From Sipunculus nudus (lineage: Eukaryota; Annelida; Sipuncula; Golfingiida; Sipunculidae), in contig CM049316.1 of the NCBI GenBank assembly GCA_026874595.1, positions 12,638,839 through 12,702,838 on the forward strand: a stretch of DNA of 64,000 nt, given 5' to 3'. The position numbers were made by a program, and so were the translations under genes. The notes beneath the pieces are model-generated. The model had not been told where the DNA came from, searched no databases, and saw only the letters and a list, made by a program, of their open reading frames with translations. Positions 3,484 through 62,200 of the stretch are shown in pieces. The stretch's first letter is position 1. Every line of letters starts with the position of its first letter.

Positions 3484-4215
3484 AGTTATTATCCCCTTGC
3501 AAGGAAATATACAGGAGGGGATATAGTAACTGCTCCATTTGTGCATACTCCACCTTTCTCTCCTTCCATCTTGCCTTCCAAAATTGGTTTGTGGTCATAT
3601 TTTAAGCCAAACCATTCCATCAAAACCTTTCATCTTTCACATATAGCTCACTTACTCATAGTGTAAGAAACTTATTGATTTACAGTCATAAGTCAAAGGT
3701 CAAGATCACAGGGCCCACTTCTACAAAAAGCTGGTAAACACATTTGAAGCCAAAGTTTTCATCCTAAACTTTCAATCTTTCACATACAGCTCACCTACCC
3801 TTAGTGGAAGAATTATTTTGAAGTCAAGTATTCAAAGATAAAGGTCACAGGACTGTCCTCATGGAAAAGCTTGTGAGCACATTTAAAGCTTAAGTTTTCA
3901 TCCCAGACCTTTCACATATGGCTCACCTATACCCAAAGAGGAAGAACTCTATTATGTGGTCACTTGGTTAAAGGTTAAGGTCACAGGACCCACTTCTGCA
4001 AAAAGCCTGTGGACATACCGGTATATTAAGTTTTCATCCAGAACCTTCCATTCTCCACATATGGCTCACCTATCAGAAGTGGAAGAATTCTCTCAATTTT
4101 GAGGCACCAAAGTACAGAGATCAAGGTCACAGAACTGCCCTACTGATTTATCACAATGTTTAAAACATCATGTCTGATTGTGCTCCCGTGTGAGAGGTTT
4201 GTGGTGCCCTTGTTG
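3484..4215 (+). repeat. AGGTCA-monomer element
   Basis: Opens with the inverted pair TATCCCCT / AGGGGATA (3490-3520) followed by tagtaac, as at a Helitron-like 5' hairpin. It contains about four ~120-bp monomers 'ttcatcttcacata-agctcacctac...gaag...aggtcaaggtcacagg'. It ends near gtggtgcccttg-tt. Boundaries approximate. Confidence 0.55.
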
Positions 4216-4520
4216 ATAAATGGTGCTGCGATGGACCTTTCATGATAATTTCAAAATAATGTCTAACTCTTCAAGAGTTATTGGAAAATATGGAAACTGA
4301 CTGCCTTCAGACACATGTTAACTTAGTAACCTTCCCGTAACTTACAGATTAAAAAATTGGCATTTCTTGGTCATGGTCACAGAAGAGCTCCATGGCATGA
4401 TTTAGTGCCGTGATCAATAATAATGCAGAAGTTCCCATGAGCTTTACATGATGACTTCAAAGTTTTCATTTTGTGTGAGCAAGACTGCTGAATAGCAGGA
4501 ATACTTCGGCGCTTATATAT

Positions 4521-7500
4521 TTTTTAGCAAACCTGTGAGCTTATGCGATGGTGCGGCATCGTGCGTCGTGCGTCATCTGTACATTAACCATAGCTATCTC
4601 TAAAATGGCAGGAGCTAGCATCACCAAATTTTTTGCAAATGATCAGTCATCCAAAAAACTTTATCAGATTTTGTTTATTTTTTTTTCTAACTGCATTTTC
4701 TTAGATTTTATAGGAAAAAAGCTAAAAAAGCTTTAAAAATCTTCTTCTCCGAACCTGTCCAGCCAAATTGTCAATATTTCACAGAAATGATCCCTGGAAC
4801 AATCTTTTTCAAGTTTGTTTGAATGGTTCCAGTTCGATGATTTTTGGCAGAGTTACAGATGGTTGAACTTTGTTAACCTTGCAAAAAAGCATATTAAAAT
4901 TTTAATCTCAGGAGCGGCTGGAGCAATCATCACCAAATTTTATGCCAATGTTGGTCACATACGTCATATCTGAAATTGAGGTATTGGTGGCGCCACCTGC
5001 ATCAGCCTTTCTTGTACGGGGTCATCAGTGCCTGTAACACACTGAGGGCTACAAAAAACTTCTTCTCTGAAACCATATGGCCAAAATTATTAATATCGCA
5101 CAGAAATGATCCTAGAGTAGTGCTTTCTGAAGTTTGTTCAAATGGTCTTAGTTCAGTGACTTTTGGCTGAGTTATGGGAAGCTGAATTTAGTCATATGCT
5201 GTAACAGCCCATTTTAGCCAAGTGGCTACAAAGATCTTCTCCTCAAAAACCACTGGGCCAAATTCTTAAATCTCACACATTAATTATCCTTAGATGTTGA
5301 TAATTCAAGTTTGTTCAAATGGTATTGGTTCAGTGATTTTTGGCTGAGTTATGGGAAGCTGAGCTTAGCCAGTTTGCTGTATCTTCCTATATGAGTTATA
5401 AACCTGCGAAACGTTTTTGACTGATGCCACTGACGCAAGTTTGTTAAATATTTTACAAGAATAATCCCTACAATAATTCTTATAATAATTGTTATTAAAG
5501 GCTCCACATGAATGATTTTTGGCTGAATTATGGAAATTGAATTGAGTCATTTTACCATATATGTTAGCTGTGTTATGCTGTTATATCTAGCCTGGCACCA
5601 TTTAATCAGCATCTATTACATCATGCCACTAGACATTTAGATTTCAGATTATCTTTGGTTAATATTGACAAGAAAGTTTTTTTTAAAAGCTTTTAAAAAA
5701 TTTAGATTTATGATTTAAGTTATTCATCATACCAGGCAATGTTACAATCATGGATATTCAGCTCTCTGTGGCTATATAAAGACAACTGTACGTGGATTAT
5801 AAATTATTGGTATCCCTACTCAACTTAATTCAAGAATTTGCCATCAATGAGATATATCTTTATTTTAATTTGCATTCAGTATGCATCCGTAATAATTTTA
5901 CATATATTCCTGATTTCTTTTTTATAAAAAATCAGCTGAAAAGCATTTTATATTGGGAAAATAAATTTCAAAGATATTTCAAGTAGGGACCACTTTTGTG
6001 TACAGATGGCAGCACTGGGTTTACCATTGGCAGATTGCCAGTGCCTTGATGTTGGCCATTAGCCAAGATGATGTCAGCTCTATAAATAGTGCCACAGTGC
6101 CAGGATTGGAAGAAGTGCAGCCAGGTAGAGGTCAAGAGTTCACTCAGTTGAGTAGCTGCATTCTATTTATAGCTTTGGCAGACTGCTCACTTCATCATAT
6201 TTGGCACCAAAGTTCAGCCTGAATCTATTTATAGCTTTGGCAGACTGCCAACTGTGTCAGATTATGCAGTAGGTCAAGAGTTCACTCAGTGCAGCCAGGT
6301 ACAGGTCAAAAGTTCACTCAGTCTAGCCAGGTGCAGGTCAAGAGTTCACTCAGTGCAGTAGCTTGAGGCAGCAATTTGTCACAGGTCACTCGGGGGCAAC
6401 TGCCTTACTCACCTAAGCCTTGTCAGCCCAGTGCATCAAACTCTGGGGAAGTTGTCTATGACCTGTCTATGCATCTTTGATGGTATTCTTATTTACAAGA
6501 CAAGTGGTGCCACCTACATTGACTTTTGCAGTGTATGCGCCTGCTTATTTCTACAGAGGAATTTGATATATCAGCCTTAAGTTGGGCATGTTTATACATA
6601 TCGGGTAGCTTTATAGTGTACAAGACTGGTGGCGCCACCTACAATAATTTTTGCACAGTGTATGTCCCTGCTTATTTCACAGGAGGGGTTTGACATATCA
6701 GTCTGACATTGGGCATATTTATATATCTCTTCGTTGTATATAAGACTGGTGGTGCCAGCTACAATCATTGTATCCGCCAAAACAGAGTTTTGCGGATACT
6801 ATGTTTTCAGTCAGACGCTGACGCTGCCGCCATTGCTGCAACTCCACAATAACCACTGGGCAGAATTTTTTAAAATTCCGAATTATGATTGGTAACATGT
6901 GAACTGCTGCGCTCTCATTTTTGGTTGACCTCTGACCTTTCCTTTCTGCCCAGCGTCCATTTGTGAGTCTGTTTCCACACATAAACCCACATATCTCGTG
7001 AACCGTTTGACTGATCAGGCTAAAAATTTTGCACAAATGTAGCCCTTGGAAAGCTTTATAACATACACTAAAAATGGTGGCGCCACCTGCAACCATTTTT
7101 GCACAGGGTCCATCTGTTCATCTGCTTTGGGATAAAATCACTCATATCTCAGAAGTGGTTTGACTTTTCCGCCTGAAATTTTGCAGGTTTATACATCCTG
7201 GACAGCTTTTTGGATTTTATGACAGGTGGCGCCACCTACATTCACATTTACTCTGCAGACATCTAAGCTCATATCTCGGGAACCGTTTGACCGATTGAGC
7301 CAAAATTTTGCATGTGTATAGATCTCACATAGCTCTTCATCATAGGCAAAACTGGTGGCGCCACCTACAACCATTTTTGCACAGCGTCCATCTGTTCATC
7401 TCCTTTGGGATAAAATCACTCATATCTCAGCAGTGGATTGACTTTTCCACCTGAAATTTTGCAGGTTTATACATCCTGGACAGCTTACTCAATTTTATGA

Positions 7501-8114
7501 CAGGTGGAGCCACCTACATTCATGTTTACTCTGCAGACATCCAAGCTCATATCTCAGGAACCGTTTGACTGATTGAGCCAAAATTTTGCATGTGTATAGA
7601 TCTCACATAGCTCTTCATCATAGGCAAAACTGGTGGCACCACCTGCAACCGTTTTTGCACAGCGTCCATCTGTTCATCTACTTTGGGATAAAATCACTCA
7701 TATCTCAGCAGTGGTTTGACTTTTCCACCTGAAATTTTGCAGGTTTATACATCCTGGACAATTTTCTCAATTTTATGACAGGTGGCACCACCTACATTCA
7801 CATTTACGCTGCAGACATCCATGCTAATATGCAACACACCTCACTCTAATTCCCCTTGCCACTTAATCCATGCCTCACTTCACCCGTCACACTCTGATTT
7901 CTGCAGATACACATAGTCGCTTGTCGACTACCCATATTCTAGTTTTAAAATGTCCTAGTCTGAAACTTGCAGGTCCGAAACATCCATTTTGCCGAAATCA
8001 TAATTACTAAGGTAGATATGCAGGACTTAAGAGGATCAATATTAAATTTAAAAAATAAACCTCCATTCATACTCCCAATCTTTGCACAGGTTCGCATTAG
8101 GCCTGTAGGCCTTG
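4521..8114 (+). mobile_element. Helitron-like non-autonomous element, family B, with family A inserted
   Basis: Starts at ttttTAGC(A/G)AACCTGTG and ends in CACAGGTTCGC, then AGGCCTGTAGGCCTTG followed by TT. The inverted pair GCGAACCTGTG / CACAGGTTCGC is terminal at the 5' side but lies ~20 bp inside the 3' side, the asymmetric arrangement described for Helentron-type elements. The inside holds diverged ~160-bp repeats ('cttcttctccgaa...gccaaattgt...ttcacag'), a GGTGGCGCCACC box at 4986, GTCAAGAGTTCACTCAGTG repeats around 6260-6360, and a complete family A element at 6769-7942. No protein. Confidence 0.75.
6769..7942 (+). mobile_element. Family A Helitron-like element nested in family B
   Basis: 5' hairpin GTATCCGCCAAAAC / GTTTTGCGGATAC, tandem core of GGTGGCGCCACC-bearing monomers, 3' stem-loop (tagtcg-cttgt-cgacta) and terminal CTAG (7939-7942) followed by TT. 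Sequence to the left (gccagctacaatcatt) matches family B DNA at 29735-29750, confirming insertion into a family B copy. Confidence 0.77.
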
Positions 8115-13995: not shown

Positions 13996-15182
13996 TGTAT
14001 CCGCCAAAACGAAGTTTTGCGGATACTATGTTTTTGACCGGGTTCCGCCGCCGCCGCCGCGTTCGTTTCCGGAGAACTCCTCTGAGACTACTGGACAGAT
14101 TTTTCCGAAACTTACACAAATTATCGGGTCACATGTGAACTGGTGCCTAACCAAGTGACCTTGACCTCTGACCTTTCGTCTCTGCCCAGCGTCCGTTTGT
14201 GCGTCTGTTTACACACATAAACCCATATATCTCGGGAACCGTTTGACCGATCCGGAAAATTTTTTTACACAAATGTAGCCCTGGGATAGCTTTATAACAT
14301 ACACAACAAAAGGTGGCGCCACCTGCAACCATGTTTGCACAGTGTCCATCTGTTCATCTGCCTGGGGTTAAAATCACTCATATCTCTGCAGTGGTTTGAC
14401 TAATTCACCTAAAATTTGGCATGCATATACATCCTAGATAGCTTTCTCAATTTTATGACAGGTGGCGCCACCTACATTCACGTTAACGCTCCACACATAA
14501 ACCCATATATCTCGGGAACCGTTTGACCGATCCGGAAAAAATTTTTACACAAATGTAGCCCTGGGATAGCTTTATAACATACACAACAAAAGATGGCGCC
14601 ACCTGCAACCATGTTTGCACAGTGTCCATTTGTTCATCTGCCTGGGGTTAAAATCACTCATATCTCTGCAATGGTTTGACTAATTCACCTAAAATTCGGT
14701 ATGCGTATACATCCTAGATAGCTTCCTTGATTTTATGACAGGTGGCGCCACCTACATTCATGTTAACGCTGCAGACATCCAAGCTCATATCTCGGGAACC
14801 GTTTGACCGATCCGGAAAAAAAATTTACACAAATGTAGCCCTGGGATAGCTTTATAACATACACAACAAAAGGTGGCGCCACCTGCAACCATGTTTGCAC
14901 AGCGTCCATCTGTTTGTCTGCTGTGGGATAAAATCACCCATATCTCTGCAGTGGTTTGACTTTTCCACTTGAAATTTTGCATGTGTATTTATCTTGGATA
15001 GTTTCTCGTTCAAATAACAGGTGGCGCCACCTACAATCATGTTTATGTGGCAGAGATCCAATACTAATATTTTACATATGTAACTCTATATCCCCTTGCC
15101 ACTCAATCCATGCCTCACTTCACCCGTCCTTCTCTGATTTTGGCGGATACACGTAGTCGCTTGTCGACTACCCGTATTCTAG
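13996..15182 (+). mobile_element. Family A Helitron-like element, best-preserved ends
   Basis: Starts TGTATCCGCCAAAAC with a 5' hairpin, then a (CCG)n-rich leader and the core repeats. The 3' side carries TTTTGGCGGATAC, the exact 13-base inverted copy of GTATCCGCCAAAA. It is followed by the stem-loop GTAGTCG-CTTGT-CGACTAC and CTAG (15179-15182) then TT. This is the textbook asymmetric-inverted-repeat plan. Short open frames over it follow the repeats and are not genes. Confidence 0.8.
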
Positions 15183-48476: not shown

Positions 48477-50055
48477 TGTATCCGCCAAAACAGAGTTTTG
48501 CGGATACTATGTTTTCAGCTGGCCGCCGCCGCCGCCGCGTAGGTGTCCGGAGAACTCCTCCGTAACCGCTGGGCGGAATTTTCCGAAACCCGGGATTATG
48601 TTCGGGTCACATGTGAACTGCTGCGCCCCGATTTTGTTTTGACCTCTGACCTTTCCTTTGCGCTCTGCGTCCGTTTGTGCGTCTGTTTCCACACATAAAC
48701 CCACATATCTCGGGAACCGTTTGACCGATCAGGAAAATTTTTTTGCACAAATGTAGCCCTCGGAGAGCTTTATAACATACACCAGAAATGGTGGCGCCAC
48801 CTGCAACCATGTTTGCACAGTGTCCATCTGTTCGTCTGCCTTGGGTTAAAATCACTCATATCTCTGCAGTGACTTGACTAATTCACCTGAAATTGGGCAT
48901 GCGTAAACATCCTGGATAGCTTTACTGATTTTATGACAGGTGGCGCCACCTACATTCACGTTTACGCTGCAGACATCCAAGCTCATATCTCGGGAACCGT
49001 TTGACCGATCAGGAAAATTCTTTTGCACAAATGTAGCCCTTGGAGAGCTTTATAACATACACCAAAAATGGTGGCGCCACCTGCAACCATGTTTGCACAG
49101 TGTCCATCTGTTCGTCTGCCTTGGGTTAAAATCACTCATATCTCTGCAGTGACGTGACTAATTCACCTGAAATTGGGCATGCGTATACATCCTGGATAGC
49201 TTTTCTGATTTTATGACAGGGGGCGCCACCTACATTCACGTTTACGCTGCAGACATCAAAAGTCATATCTCGGGAACCGTTTGATCGATCAGGAAAATTC
49301 TTTTGCACAAATGTAGCCCTTGGAGAGCTTTATAACATACACCAAAAATGGTGGCGCTACCTGCAACCATGTTTGCACAGTGTCCATCTGTTTGTCTGCC
49401 TTGGGTTAAAATCACTCATATCTCTGCAGTGACTTGACTAATTCACCTGAAATTTGGCATGCGTATACATCCTGGATAGCTTTTCTGATTTTATGACACG
49501 TGGTGCCACGTACATTCACGTTTACGCTGCAGACATCCAAGCTCATATCTCAGGAACTGTTTGAACGATCAGGAAAATTTTTTTGCACAAATGTAGCCCT
49601 TGGAGAGCTTTATAACATACACCGAAAATGGTGGCACCACCTGCAACCATGTTTGCACAGTGTCCATCTGTTTGTCTGCCTTGGGTTAAAATCACTCATA
49701 TTTCTGCAGTGGTTTGACTAATTCACCTGATATTCGGCATGCTTATACATCCTGGATAGCTTTTCTGATTTTATGACAGGTGGCGCCACCTACAATCAAG
49801 TGTACGCTGCAGACATCCAAGCTCATATCTAGGGAACCGTTTGACCGATTGGGCCAAAATTTTGCATGTGTATAAATCTCACATAGCTCTTTATCATACG
49901 CAAAACTGGTGGCGCCACCTGCAGCCATGTTTGCATAGCTCCCATCTGTTTGTCTGCCATGGGATAAAATATCCATGCTAATATGCAACACTTCACCCGT
50001 TCCACTCTGATTTAGGCGGATACAAGTAGTCGCTTGTCGACTACCTGTATTCTAG
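48477..50055 (+). mobile_element. Family A Helitron-like element with a regular 280-bp core
   Basis: Same 5' hairpin and (CCG)n leader. The core is four dimers of exactly 280 bp, each a 153-bp and a 127-bp half-unit that both begin catatct and both carry a GGTGGCGCCACC-like box. The 3' end has ggcggatac, the stem-loop GTAGTCG/CGACTAC and CTAG (50052-50055) then TT. Confidence 0.8.
48704..49823 (+). repeat. Four 280-bp tandem dimers inside family A
   Basis: Dimers start at 48704, 48984, 49264 and 49544. Within each, the second half-unit starts 153 bp later (48857, 49137, 49417, 49697). A fifth, diverged first half begins at 49824. The two half-units share catatctc, a TTGAC core and the palindrome box but differ elsewhere, so the present repeat is a higher-order unit from an older ~140-bp monomer. 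Confidence 0.9.
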
Positions 50056-59200: not shown

Positions 59201-62200
59201 AAAAGCAGCTATTTAGTTTTATTCTGTTCAAGATATGGAAATGTGAATGTGACCACAGCTATTATACAGTATTAACATTATTCCTGCTTGGACTAAACTG
59301 AGTTTACCATCGATGGTTAATTATGATTTTGTTTATTAACCACATACACAGGTTTTTTTCTGCATAGTTATAAATATACAATGATTAAGATGGAAAATTT
59401 TGAAATATAGAATTAATTACCGGTACTTTATTTCATTTGGTAATGATACATTAAGTGAGAAGCTGATTTTGAATTGTACAGTGATGTGTGTTGCTGGTAT
59501 CAGAAATAAGAACTAAATACTGTATGTGTGTTAGAGAGAGGCCAGAGGTAGCAGGTGTTTGGGAGGTGGTGTGGATATGTGTGTGTGAGTGAGGGGAGTC
59601 ATGGCTGTTCATAGATTGGGGTGTTGGTTGTGGGTTGGAAGGTCTGGAAAAAGTTATTAAATGCAGGAAATATGTCAGTGATGAGCAAAGATCAAGAAAA
59701 GACAGTGACACATGTTAACCAGGTCAACATTTATTATAACATACATTGTTTCTCCTGATTCTAATATCTATAACGGCTTACAGGTGTGAAGCAACCCTTG
59801 GAGAGTTCCTTAGGAATATCTGTAAAACAGAACGCACTCTGAACTTCCCCACCATGGCCAACATCCTGATCCTGCACAGCCAATCAACAGGTAAATACAG
59901 GTGATACAGGTGTCTACTCTGATCCTGCACAGCCAATCAACAGGTAAATACAAGTGAGACAGGTGTGTATTCTGATCCTGAACAGCCAATCAACAAGTAA
60001 ATACAGGTGATACAGGTGTGTATTCTGATCATGCACAGCCAATAATCAGGTAAATACAGGTGATACAGGTGTGTATTCTGATCTTGCACAGCCAATCAAC
60101 AAGTAAATACAGGTGATACAGGTGTGTATTCTGATCATGCACAGCCAATAATCAGGTAAATACAGGTGATACAGGTGTGTATTCTGATCCTGAACAGCCA
60201 ATCAACAAGTAAATACAGGTGATACAGGTGTGTATTCTGATCATGCACAGCCAATAATCAGGTAAATACAGGTGATACTGATGTGTATTCTGATCCTGCA
60301 CAGCGAATCAGCAGGTAAATACAGATGATACAGGTGTGTATTCTGATCCTGAACAGCCAATCAACAAGTAAATACAGGTGATACAGGTGTGTATTCTGAT
60401 CATGCACAGCCAATAATCAGGTAAATACAGGTGATACTGATGTGTATTCTGATCCTGCACAGCCAATCATCAGGTAAATACAGGTGTGTATTCTGATCCT
60501 GCACAGCCAAACAACAGGTAAATACAGGTGTAATCCTTATCCTACACAGTTAACAGGTAAATACATGGGGTTTTTTTTTCGGGTGTATATTCTCAACTTT
60601 CCCACCATGGCCAACATCCTAATCCTACTTGTTATACAGCTGACATAACTTATAGAACTGAGTACATGTAGGTAATATAGCTGTAAAGCTGACTGAAGTT
60701 GTTTAAAGACATGTCTTTGGTTATAGGGATTATAATGGTGTATGTTTGATTATACAAATTATAGAAGTGTGCAAAAGGTAGTGCAACTGATTATACAGGT
60801 TATCTACAGCTGATTATTCAGTGTAAGTCTATTAAAAACACATAAGGGTATATATTAACTTGCTTCAAAAATGCTGTAAGAAAAGGAAGTAGCTTATGTA
60901 CTCTGACTTATAAATATAGGTTATATAGTATAATCCCCTGTTAACCTTTCAGATTCTCTGATCCAACTGACTGCCATCTCCTGGCTTAGGGAGCTGATGT
61001 ACTCTAGCTTACTATACAGGTTATAGCTCACCTCCTGTTAACCTTTCAGATGCTTTGATACAGCTGACTGCCATCTCCTGGCTAAAGGGGTCAGATTCTC
61101 AGATCCAGCTGACTGCCATCTCCTGGCTTAAGGAGCTGATGTACTCTAGCTTACCATACAGATTATAACTCGGCTCCTGTTAACATTTCAGATGCTCTGA
61201 TCCAGCTGACTGCCATCTCCTGGCTTATGGAGCTGATGTACTCTAGCTTACTATACAGGTTATAGCTCACCTCCTGTTAACCTTTCAGATGCTTTGATAC
61301 AGCTGACTGCAATCTCCTGGCTAAAGGGGTCAGATTCTCAGATCCAGCTGACTGCCATCTCCTGGCTTAAGGAGCTGATGTACTCTGGCTTACCATACAG
61401 ATTATAACTCGGCTCCTGTTAACCTTTCAGATGCTCTGATCCAGCTGACTGCCATCTCCTGGCTTAAGGAGCTGATGTACTCTAGCTTACTATATACAGG
61501 TTCTAACTCACCTACTTTCAACCTTTCAGATGTTCTGATCCAGCTGACCACCATCTCCTGGCTTAAGGAGCTTATGTGCTCTAGCTTACTATACAGGTTA
61601 TAACTCACCGCCTGTTAACCTTTCAGATGCTCTGATCCAGCTGACTGCCATCTCCTCGCTAAAGGAGCTGATGTACTCTATCTTATTATACAGGTTATAA
61701 CTCACCTCCTGTTAACCTTTCAGATGCTCTGATCCAGCTGACTGCCATCTCCTGGCTTAAGGAGCTGATCCTGCTGTCAGGCCGGACCATGATCCCCTAC
61801 ACCTCTGGTATCCTGACCGCTGTACATCCTTGCCTGGCCTATGAGAACCCAAAGAGGAAAAGTATCCTTTTAATAAATGCCAAAATCATTTGCTGCATTG
61901 TTTTTATGCAACCATTATATTTGAAGGGGTTTTCTGTTTTTTATTCCTAAAATTAACTTAGACTTGTGAAAGTTTTGTAATCATACAGTTTCTTTGCCAA
62001 ACAGCAAATAATCTGTTAAAATTATATTGAAAACCCCAGGAAAATATGGCAGAGATTGAGTAAGGCATGTTTAGAAACCTTGAACTGATAATTTATACTG
62101 TATTTATCAAAATGGCAGACAGTCTTTTCAGTATATATATATTAAATGAGTTGATCTTTTCTATTGTGTTCCATAATATCTGTGCTTTATTGTGTTGCAT

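Follow-up and report, generated by a model that had tools for sequence, protein, structure and literature searches.

The window analysed here is a 64,000-nucleotide stretch of DNA from Sipunculus nudus (GenBank assembly GCA_026874595.1, contig CM049316.1, positions 12,638,839 to 12,702,838, forward strand), which holds exons of a VAC14 gene. The gene was identified as VAC14 because of genome matches to Vac14_Fab1_bd and Vac14_Fig4_bd. Vac14_Fab1_bd gave one match in the whole genome, inside the window, and Vac14_Fig4_bd matched on the same strand in four pieces, one of them with an internal stop, about 11-16 kb beyond the end of the window. The Vac14 domains were found at a single genomic place, in order and on one strand. 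The joined VAC14 exons gave no match at E 0.001 in a phmmer search against the PDB, and the only Pfam matches, to a HEAT repeat and more weakly to TOG, fell under their cut-offs. Two of the exons, here called e and f, join in frame without a stop. The phase-1 intron between them is 1,833 nt long and is largely filled by two tandem arrays, which together occupy 1,488 nt; the donor array accounts for 685 nt and the acceptor array for 803 nt, which leaves 345 nt outside both. The positions of these features, and of related features elsewhere in the genome, are collected in Table 1.

Table 1. Features of the VAC14 e-f intron (positions within the window), junction-holding arrays at other sampled loci, and hemerythrin-like exon clusters; a slash within a sequence marks the splice junction.
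Feature	Position	Strand	Remarks
VAC14 exon e (107 nt)	59784..59890	+	open frame, ends in phase 1; real donor at 59891
Donor-side array, 53-bp unit (exon end, donor and intron start)	59891..60575	+	13 decoy donors
Decoy donors, VAC14	59944, 59997, 60050, 60103, 60156, 60209, 60262, 60315, 60368, 60421, 60474, 60518, 60557	+	
Exon e fragment (36 nt)	60591..60626	+	92% identical to 59838-59873; past far end of donor array
Acceptor-side array, 97/142-bp units	60921..61723	+	7 decoy acceptors
Decoy acceptor exon starts, VAC14	60953, 61050, 61192, 61289, 61431, 61530, 61627	+	
Two partial acceptor sub-copies	61095 and 61334	+	poor pyrimidine tract
Open decoy cassette (69 nt, 23 residues, length divisible by 3)	61431..61499	+	donor CAG/GTTCTA; one of 10 enumerated
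VAC14 exon f (138 nt)	61724..61861	+	real acceptor directly before 61724
L110, array at donor of myosin P-loop exon		minus	36-bp unit, 27.8 copies (TRF)
L149, array at donor of RhoGEF exon closest to TIAM1 in the PDB			spacing 49/53/57, 28 copies to locus end
L093, array at acceptor of myosin exon			5 decoys, spacing 79-86
L118, array at acceptor of kinesin exon			10 decoys 57/61 bp apart; nearest 165 bp from real site, decayed copies between
Hemerythrin-like exon clusters	C7:9291826-9606582, C7:69602284-69615562, C5:46934893-46966512		

An earlier note on this DNA had described the end of exon e with its donor as repeated about 13 times downstream in a 53-bp unit, and the acceptor with the start of exon f as repeated seven times upstream in a 97/142-bp unit. 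The counts agreed with this description: besides the real donor at 59891, which reads CAG/GTAAATACAGG, 13 further GTAAAT donors were found (14 in total), and seven further CAG acceptors precede exon f. The units of the two arrays are different sequences at opposite ends of one intron, which thus carries 20 decoys, as stated earlier. The donors are spaced by 53 bp eleven times and then by 44 and 39 bp, and Tandem Repeats Finder (TRF) described the donor array as 59866-60530 with a period of 53 and 12.7 copies. Along the seven decoy acceptors and the real one the spacing is 97/142/97/142/99/97/97. The clustering of both signals is beyond chance, since 14 of the 37 GTAAAT words on the plus strand of the window fall within 59880-60600, and eight of the 16 occurrences of TTTCAGAT fall within 60900-61760. 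The exon e fragment that lies past the distal end of this array takes in sequence from further upstream in exon e than the 53-bp unit includes, and is probably a relic of an older duplication. Genome-wide DNA searches in which very common words were skipped found neither VAC14 array elsewhere; the matches consisted of the array itself in one search and of the array together with the adjoining real acceptor in the other.

The copies are not uniform within the one haplotype compared. Of the 53 sites in the donor unit, 0-2 differ between certain copies separated by 2-4 units, and up to 10 between other pairs. Acceptor copies 61050 and 61289 differ at one site, and the edge copy 60953 differs from the real acceptor at 15. 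The motif ATACAGGT occurs in both of these unrelated arrays, 19 times and five times, and once between them (59895-60529, 61014-61695 and 60793, respectively). It was counted 37 times in the window against 2.24 expected, with 24 of the 37 inside the two VAC14 arrays. Two stretches of contig C1 with donor-like triplets also contain GATACAGGTRAG. Unrelated minisatellites thus have a motif in common.

The sequence from -3 to +8 and the predicted U1 duplex energy (-8.3 kcal/mol) are the same in the real donor and in nine of the 13 decoys. The remaining four decoys are weaker (-3.0 kcal/mol). GTAAAT is present in 14 of 14 donor copies, as had been claimed, and it can be added that these four decoys have lost the last exonic G (CAA/GTAAAT). 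All eight acceptors end in TTTCAG, in line with the survival of the pyrimidine-CAG reported for most acceptor copies, and their upstream pyrimidine fraction is 0.65-0.76, with 0.76 at the real acceptor. Because most decoy donors equal the real one and the acceptors are alike, strength hardly separates real from decoy sites, and position must do so.

Reading on into intron sequence usually meets a stop, and the decoys conform to this. Use of any of them leads to an in-frame stop (13/13 donors and 7/7 acceptors), so that the earlier wording, by which most decoy use would add a stop, was if anything too weak. The sole exception to this outcome was met when cassettes, running from a decoy acceptor to an AG/GT within 300 nt, were enumerated. 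Among 10 such cassettes on the acceptor side nine stop or break the frame and one is open and keeps it (Table 1); among the 86 in the donor array none keeps the frame.

Tandem repeats of exon-intron boundaries have been named "mirages" in amphioxus, where they are described in Adh3, in the globins BflGb6 and BflGb9, in TnC and in PGBD5, with 60 and 108 bp repeats overlapping two neighbouring exons of the last (PMC3087553, PMC3902484). Their occurrence elsewhere in the S. nudus genome was assessed in a sample of matches to the myosin head, kinesin and RhoGEF families, which had been chosen by the analyst in a survey not aimed at mirages. The 238 matches (75, 126 and 37) included 83 with loci, each centred on an exon match; 21 of the other 155 lie inside sampled loci with 300 bases to spare, which gave 104 matches and 208 edges. 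When 35 of the 155 were picked by coordinate first, and then all 155 were taken, the same four hits among 208 edges were obtained. An edge was counted if a local repeat crossed it with all copies on the intron side. Junction-holding arrays were found at four of the 104 sampled exon matches, i.e. at four of 208 edges, two donors and two acceptors (L110, L149, L093 and L118), where edges are those of HMM matches rather than annotated exon ends, some matches run over stops, and exons of the same gene are not independent. The copies at L149 read TCTGTCAG/G(T/C)AAGG, 25 of the 28 with GT and three with GC. The six mirage exons, including the two of VAC14, are 107-211 nt long (ends read by eye). Applied to 11 exons of VAC14, the same test was positive at two of 22 edges, as expected, several of these exon ends being approximate.

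Further near-edge arrays at the centred exons of L093, L108, L121, L129 and L137 were rejected, since their units do not contain the junction in question; the one at L093 belongs to the mirage of the next exon. Short CTTCTACAGACCT-like units lie just upstream of a kinesin exon at L129 (1084-1444) and contain many acceptor-like CTACAG words, which are not junction copies.

The rate of such arrays was compared with chance at the same loci. Among 41,236 random intronic positions 2.7% per side fall in the terminal unit of a local repeat, and 1.9% of the sampled exon edges do so (95% interval 0.5-4.9%), i.e. four observed against 5.6-5.7 expected. The similarity of the two rates indicates that splice junctions show no visible protection, within wide limits. 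For arrays with four or more distinct lags, a threshold set afterwards, four edges were observed against 1.0 expected (P 0.019). Array coverage had also been considered as the null and was replaced by the terminal-unit null, since no coding edge can fall within an array; against coverage (about 10% local repeats) the four edges among 208 would appear as a strong deficit (P 5e-6). Tandem repeats found by TRF make up 13.24% of the S. nudus genome according to its published description (PMC10212961). Repeats with a period of 15 or more occupy 14.2% of the window and 7.2% of the sampled flanks. Dispersed tandem arrays of 278-280 bp with a common GGTGGCGCCACCTGCAACC stretch were also observed, in the window at 7070-7830, 14212-15043 and 48704-49970 and in locus L003 at 3947-4991.

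Two other observations concern the assembly at large. Bacterial-looking cytochrome oxidase genes lie on the smaller contigs C60, C61, C62, C66, C72, C74, C75, C89 and C123. These nine matches score nearly equally and are of one type, with a best identity of 58% among the GTDB genomes listed, and the assembly probably contains cobiont DNA. The best COX1-family matches were considered as mtDNA and rejected, as they lie on these bacterial-looking contigs. A myohemerythrin search gave 31 matches to hemerythrin-like exon clusters, 28 on C7 and three on C5 (Table 1).

The arrays of the VAC14 intron probably reflect ordinary growth of mirage minisatellites whose terminal unit holds a junction, with exon definition leaving the decoys unused. 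Local tandem repeats would arise widely in a genome rich in tandem repeats, and the terminal unit of some would by chance hold a real exon-intron junction. Such an array could grow only into the intron; its exon-proximal copy would stay with the gene and the others would become intronic decoys. The acceptor and the donor nearest to each other across a short exon (107 and 138 nt) would pair first, and identical sites deeper in the intron would be removed with it, unused. Growth may proceed by slippage or unequal exchange, and both the use of the proximal sites and the near-neutrality of the copies are likewise assumed in this account. High-copy arrays are commoner at exon edges than at randomly chosen positions, which speaks against the random placement that this account supposes.

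The behaviour of human splice sites bears on the two halves of this account differently. In a study that gave human minigenes a pair of identical donors, only the one closer across the exon was used under exon definition; taken over all human alternative donors, with no filter for equal strength, preference went to the downstream donor in about 60%. For human acceptors of equal strength the same source gives a preference for the upstream one under intron definition and a reduced bias under exon definition (PMC9225289). As this bias is only weakened, decoy acceptors, which lie upstream, would be likelier to leak than decoy donors, and the comparison suggests that they should do so in VAC14. That seven upstream acceptors are ignored is the weaker half of the exon-definition account. 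Since the intron without its arrays measures just 345 nt, its former length may have been within reach of intron definition.

The earlier note had left two readings of the decoys, that splicing ignores or tolerates them, or that they are used and could tune dose by nonsense-mediated decay (NMD). The former fits best with the identity of real and decoy donors, with the human minigenes and with amphioxus; the latter found no support. It would hold that some splicing goes to decoys, either under regulation or as background, that the resulting stops lead to NMD and that array length sets the VAC14 dose. The in-frame stop after every decoy and the GTAAAT in every donor copy would suit such a role. 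Against it, the last exonic G is lost in 4/14 VAC14 donors, and conservation of the splice cores does not significantly exceed that of the remaining unit: in the six arrays the cores rank 19/53, 6/36 (L110), 11/53, 12/97, 52/82 and 13/59 (Fisher P 0.15), yet five of the six fall in the better-kept half. The same anatomy is moreover present on unrelated genes, which points to a habit of the genome rather than a device of VAC14 and to arrays that are probably tolerated rather than used. Dose tuning is therefore quite improbable. An assembly artefact, either false expansion or collapse, is extremely improbable, because HiFi reads with an N50 of 14 kb at 72x, as given in the genome description (PMC10212961), exceed the whole intron; the copies differ among themselves, and like arrays occur at four other loci.

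Exon edges might themselves favour the birth or growth of minisatellites, through transcription, structures coupled to splicing or AG/GT itself. The excess of high-copy arrays at edges and the motif ATACAGGT common to both VAC14 arrays argue for such hot spots, but with all copy numbers included, edges show no raised rate. Genome-wide, donor-like site triplets number 3129 against 1240 of the reversed pattern, a count that includes overlapping matches, whose listed matches lie in four C1 stretches and which is not a proper test. We regard an edge hot spot as unlikely. The arrays might also be introns or exons in the course of birth, their copies supplying AG and GT pairs for recruitment, a model proposed for amphioxus globins (PMC3087553). 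The open, frame-keeping cassette would be a candidate, but its donor GTTCTA is far from consensus and all the other cassettes enumerated on the acceptor side stop or break the frame, as none on the donor side keeps it, and this origin seems very improbable. Mirage growth with decoys left unused thus remains the preferred reading.

Amphioxus mirages are reported to have units of 10-160 bp, to keep AG/GT in many but not all copies and to show concerted evolution within the array, the edges excluded (PMC3087553, PMC3902484); Adh3 data and RT-PCR of the globins are said there to suggest that regular splicing is undisturbed (PMC3087553). The VAC14 arrays share with them units that span the boundary, a genuine boundary that is kept with exons e and f in frame, and a signal in many but not all copies (exonic G in 10 of 14 VAC14 donors, GT in most L149 copies, TTTCAG in all VAC14 acceptors). 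They differ in their host, a sipunculan annelid rather than a cephalochordate, and in copy number, with 14 donors and 8 acceptors in VAC14 and 28 copies in L149 compared with 2-7 in the BflGb6 and PGBD5 passages. They also differ in that one intron is hit at donor and acceptor by unrelated units and that recurrence was measured across a sample of exons. In the polyubiquitin gene UBC, tandem dual-specific AG/GT sites mark the borders of coding monomers and take part in splicing, so that the monomer number varies (PMC10809524). VAC14 is similar in its many equivalent splice sites in tandem and unlike UBC in that its units run into stops, only the one cassette in 10 keeping the frame. Intron gain by tandem genomic duplication reportedly starts from a duplication that carries splice signals, unlike the present case, where no new intron is evident and the decoys lie inside one existing intron. 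Among the titles and abstract openings listed in literature searches, a weak basis with subscription papers mostly outside it, none reported a like array from sipunculans or annelids. The kind of array, known to us only from amphioxus, is here extended to annelids, where it reaches high copy numbers, affects an intron at both its ends and can be given an initial rough rate.

We propose tentatively, as a possibility, that about one exon edge in fifty in S. nudus has been taken into a minisatellite as its terminal unit. Real splice sites by the thousand may then be multiplied several- to 28-fold, the junctions being unprotected and perhaps preferred for high-copy growth, and the duplication would be near-neutral under exon definition. 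Exons wrongly extended into such arrays would be a predictable error of annotation. Built constructs, e.g. the two-donor minigenes cited above (PMC9225289), allow tests of how identical splice sites compete. The arrays offer a natural experiment on splice-site choice, in which a single real exon is accompanied by as many as 28 like donors or by several like acceptors. As the decoy positions can be counted in RNA-seq, they allow a direct test both of the rule that splicing favours the site closest across the exon and of the poorer protection expected for acceptors.
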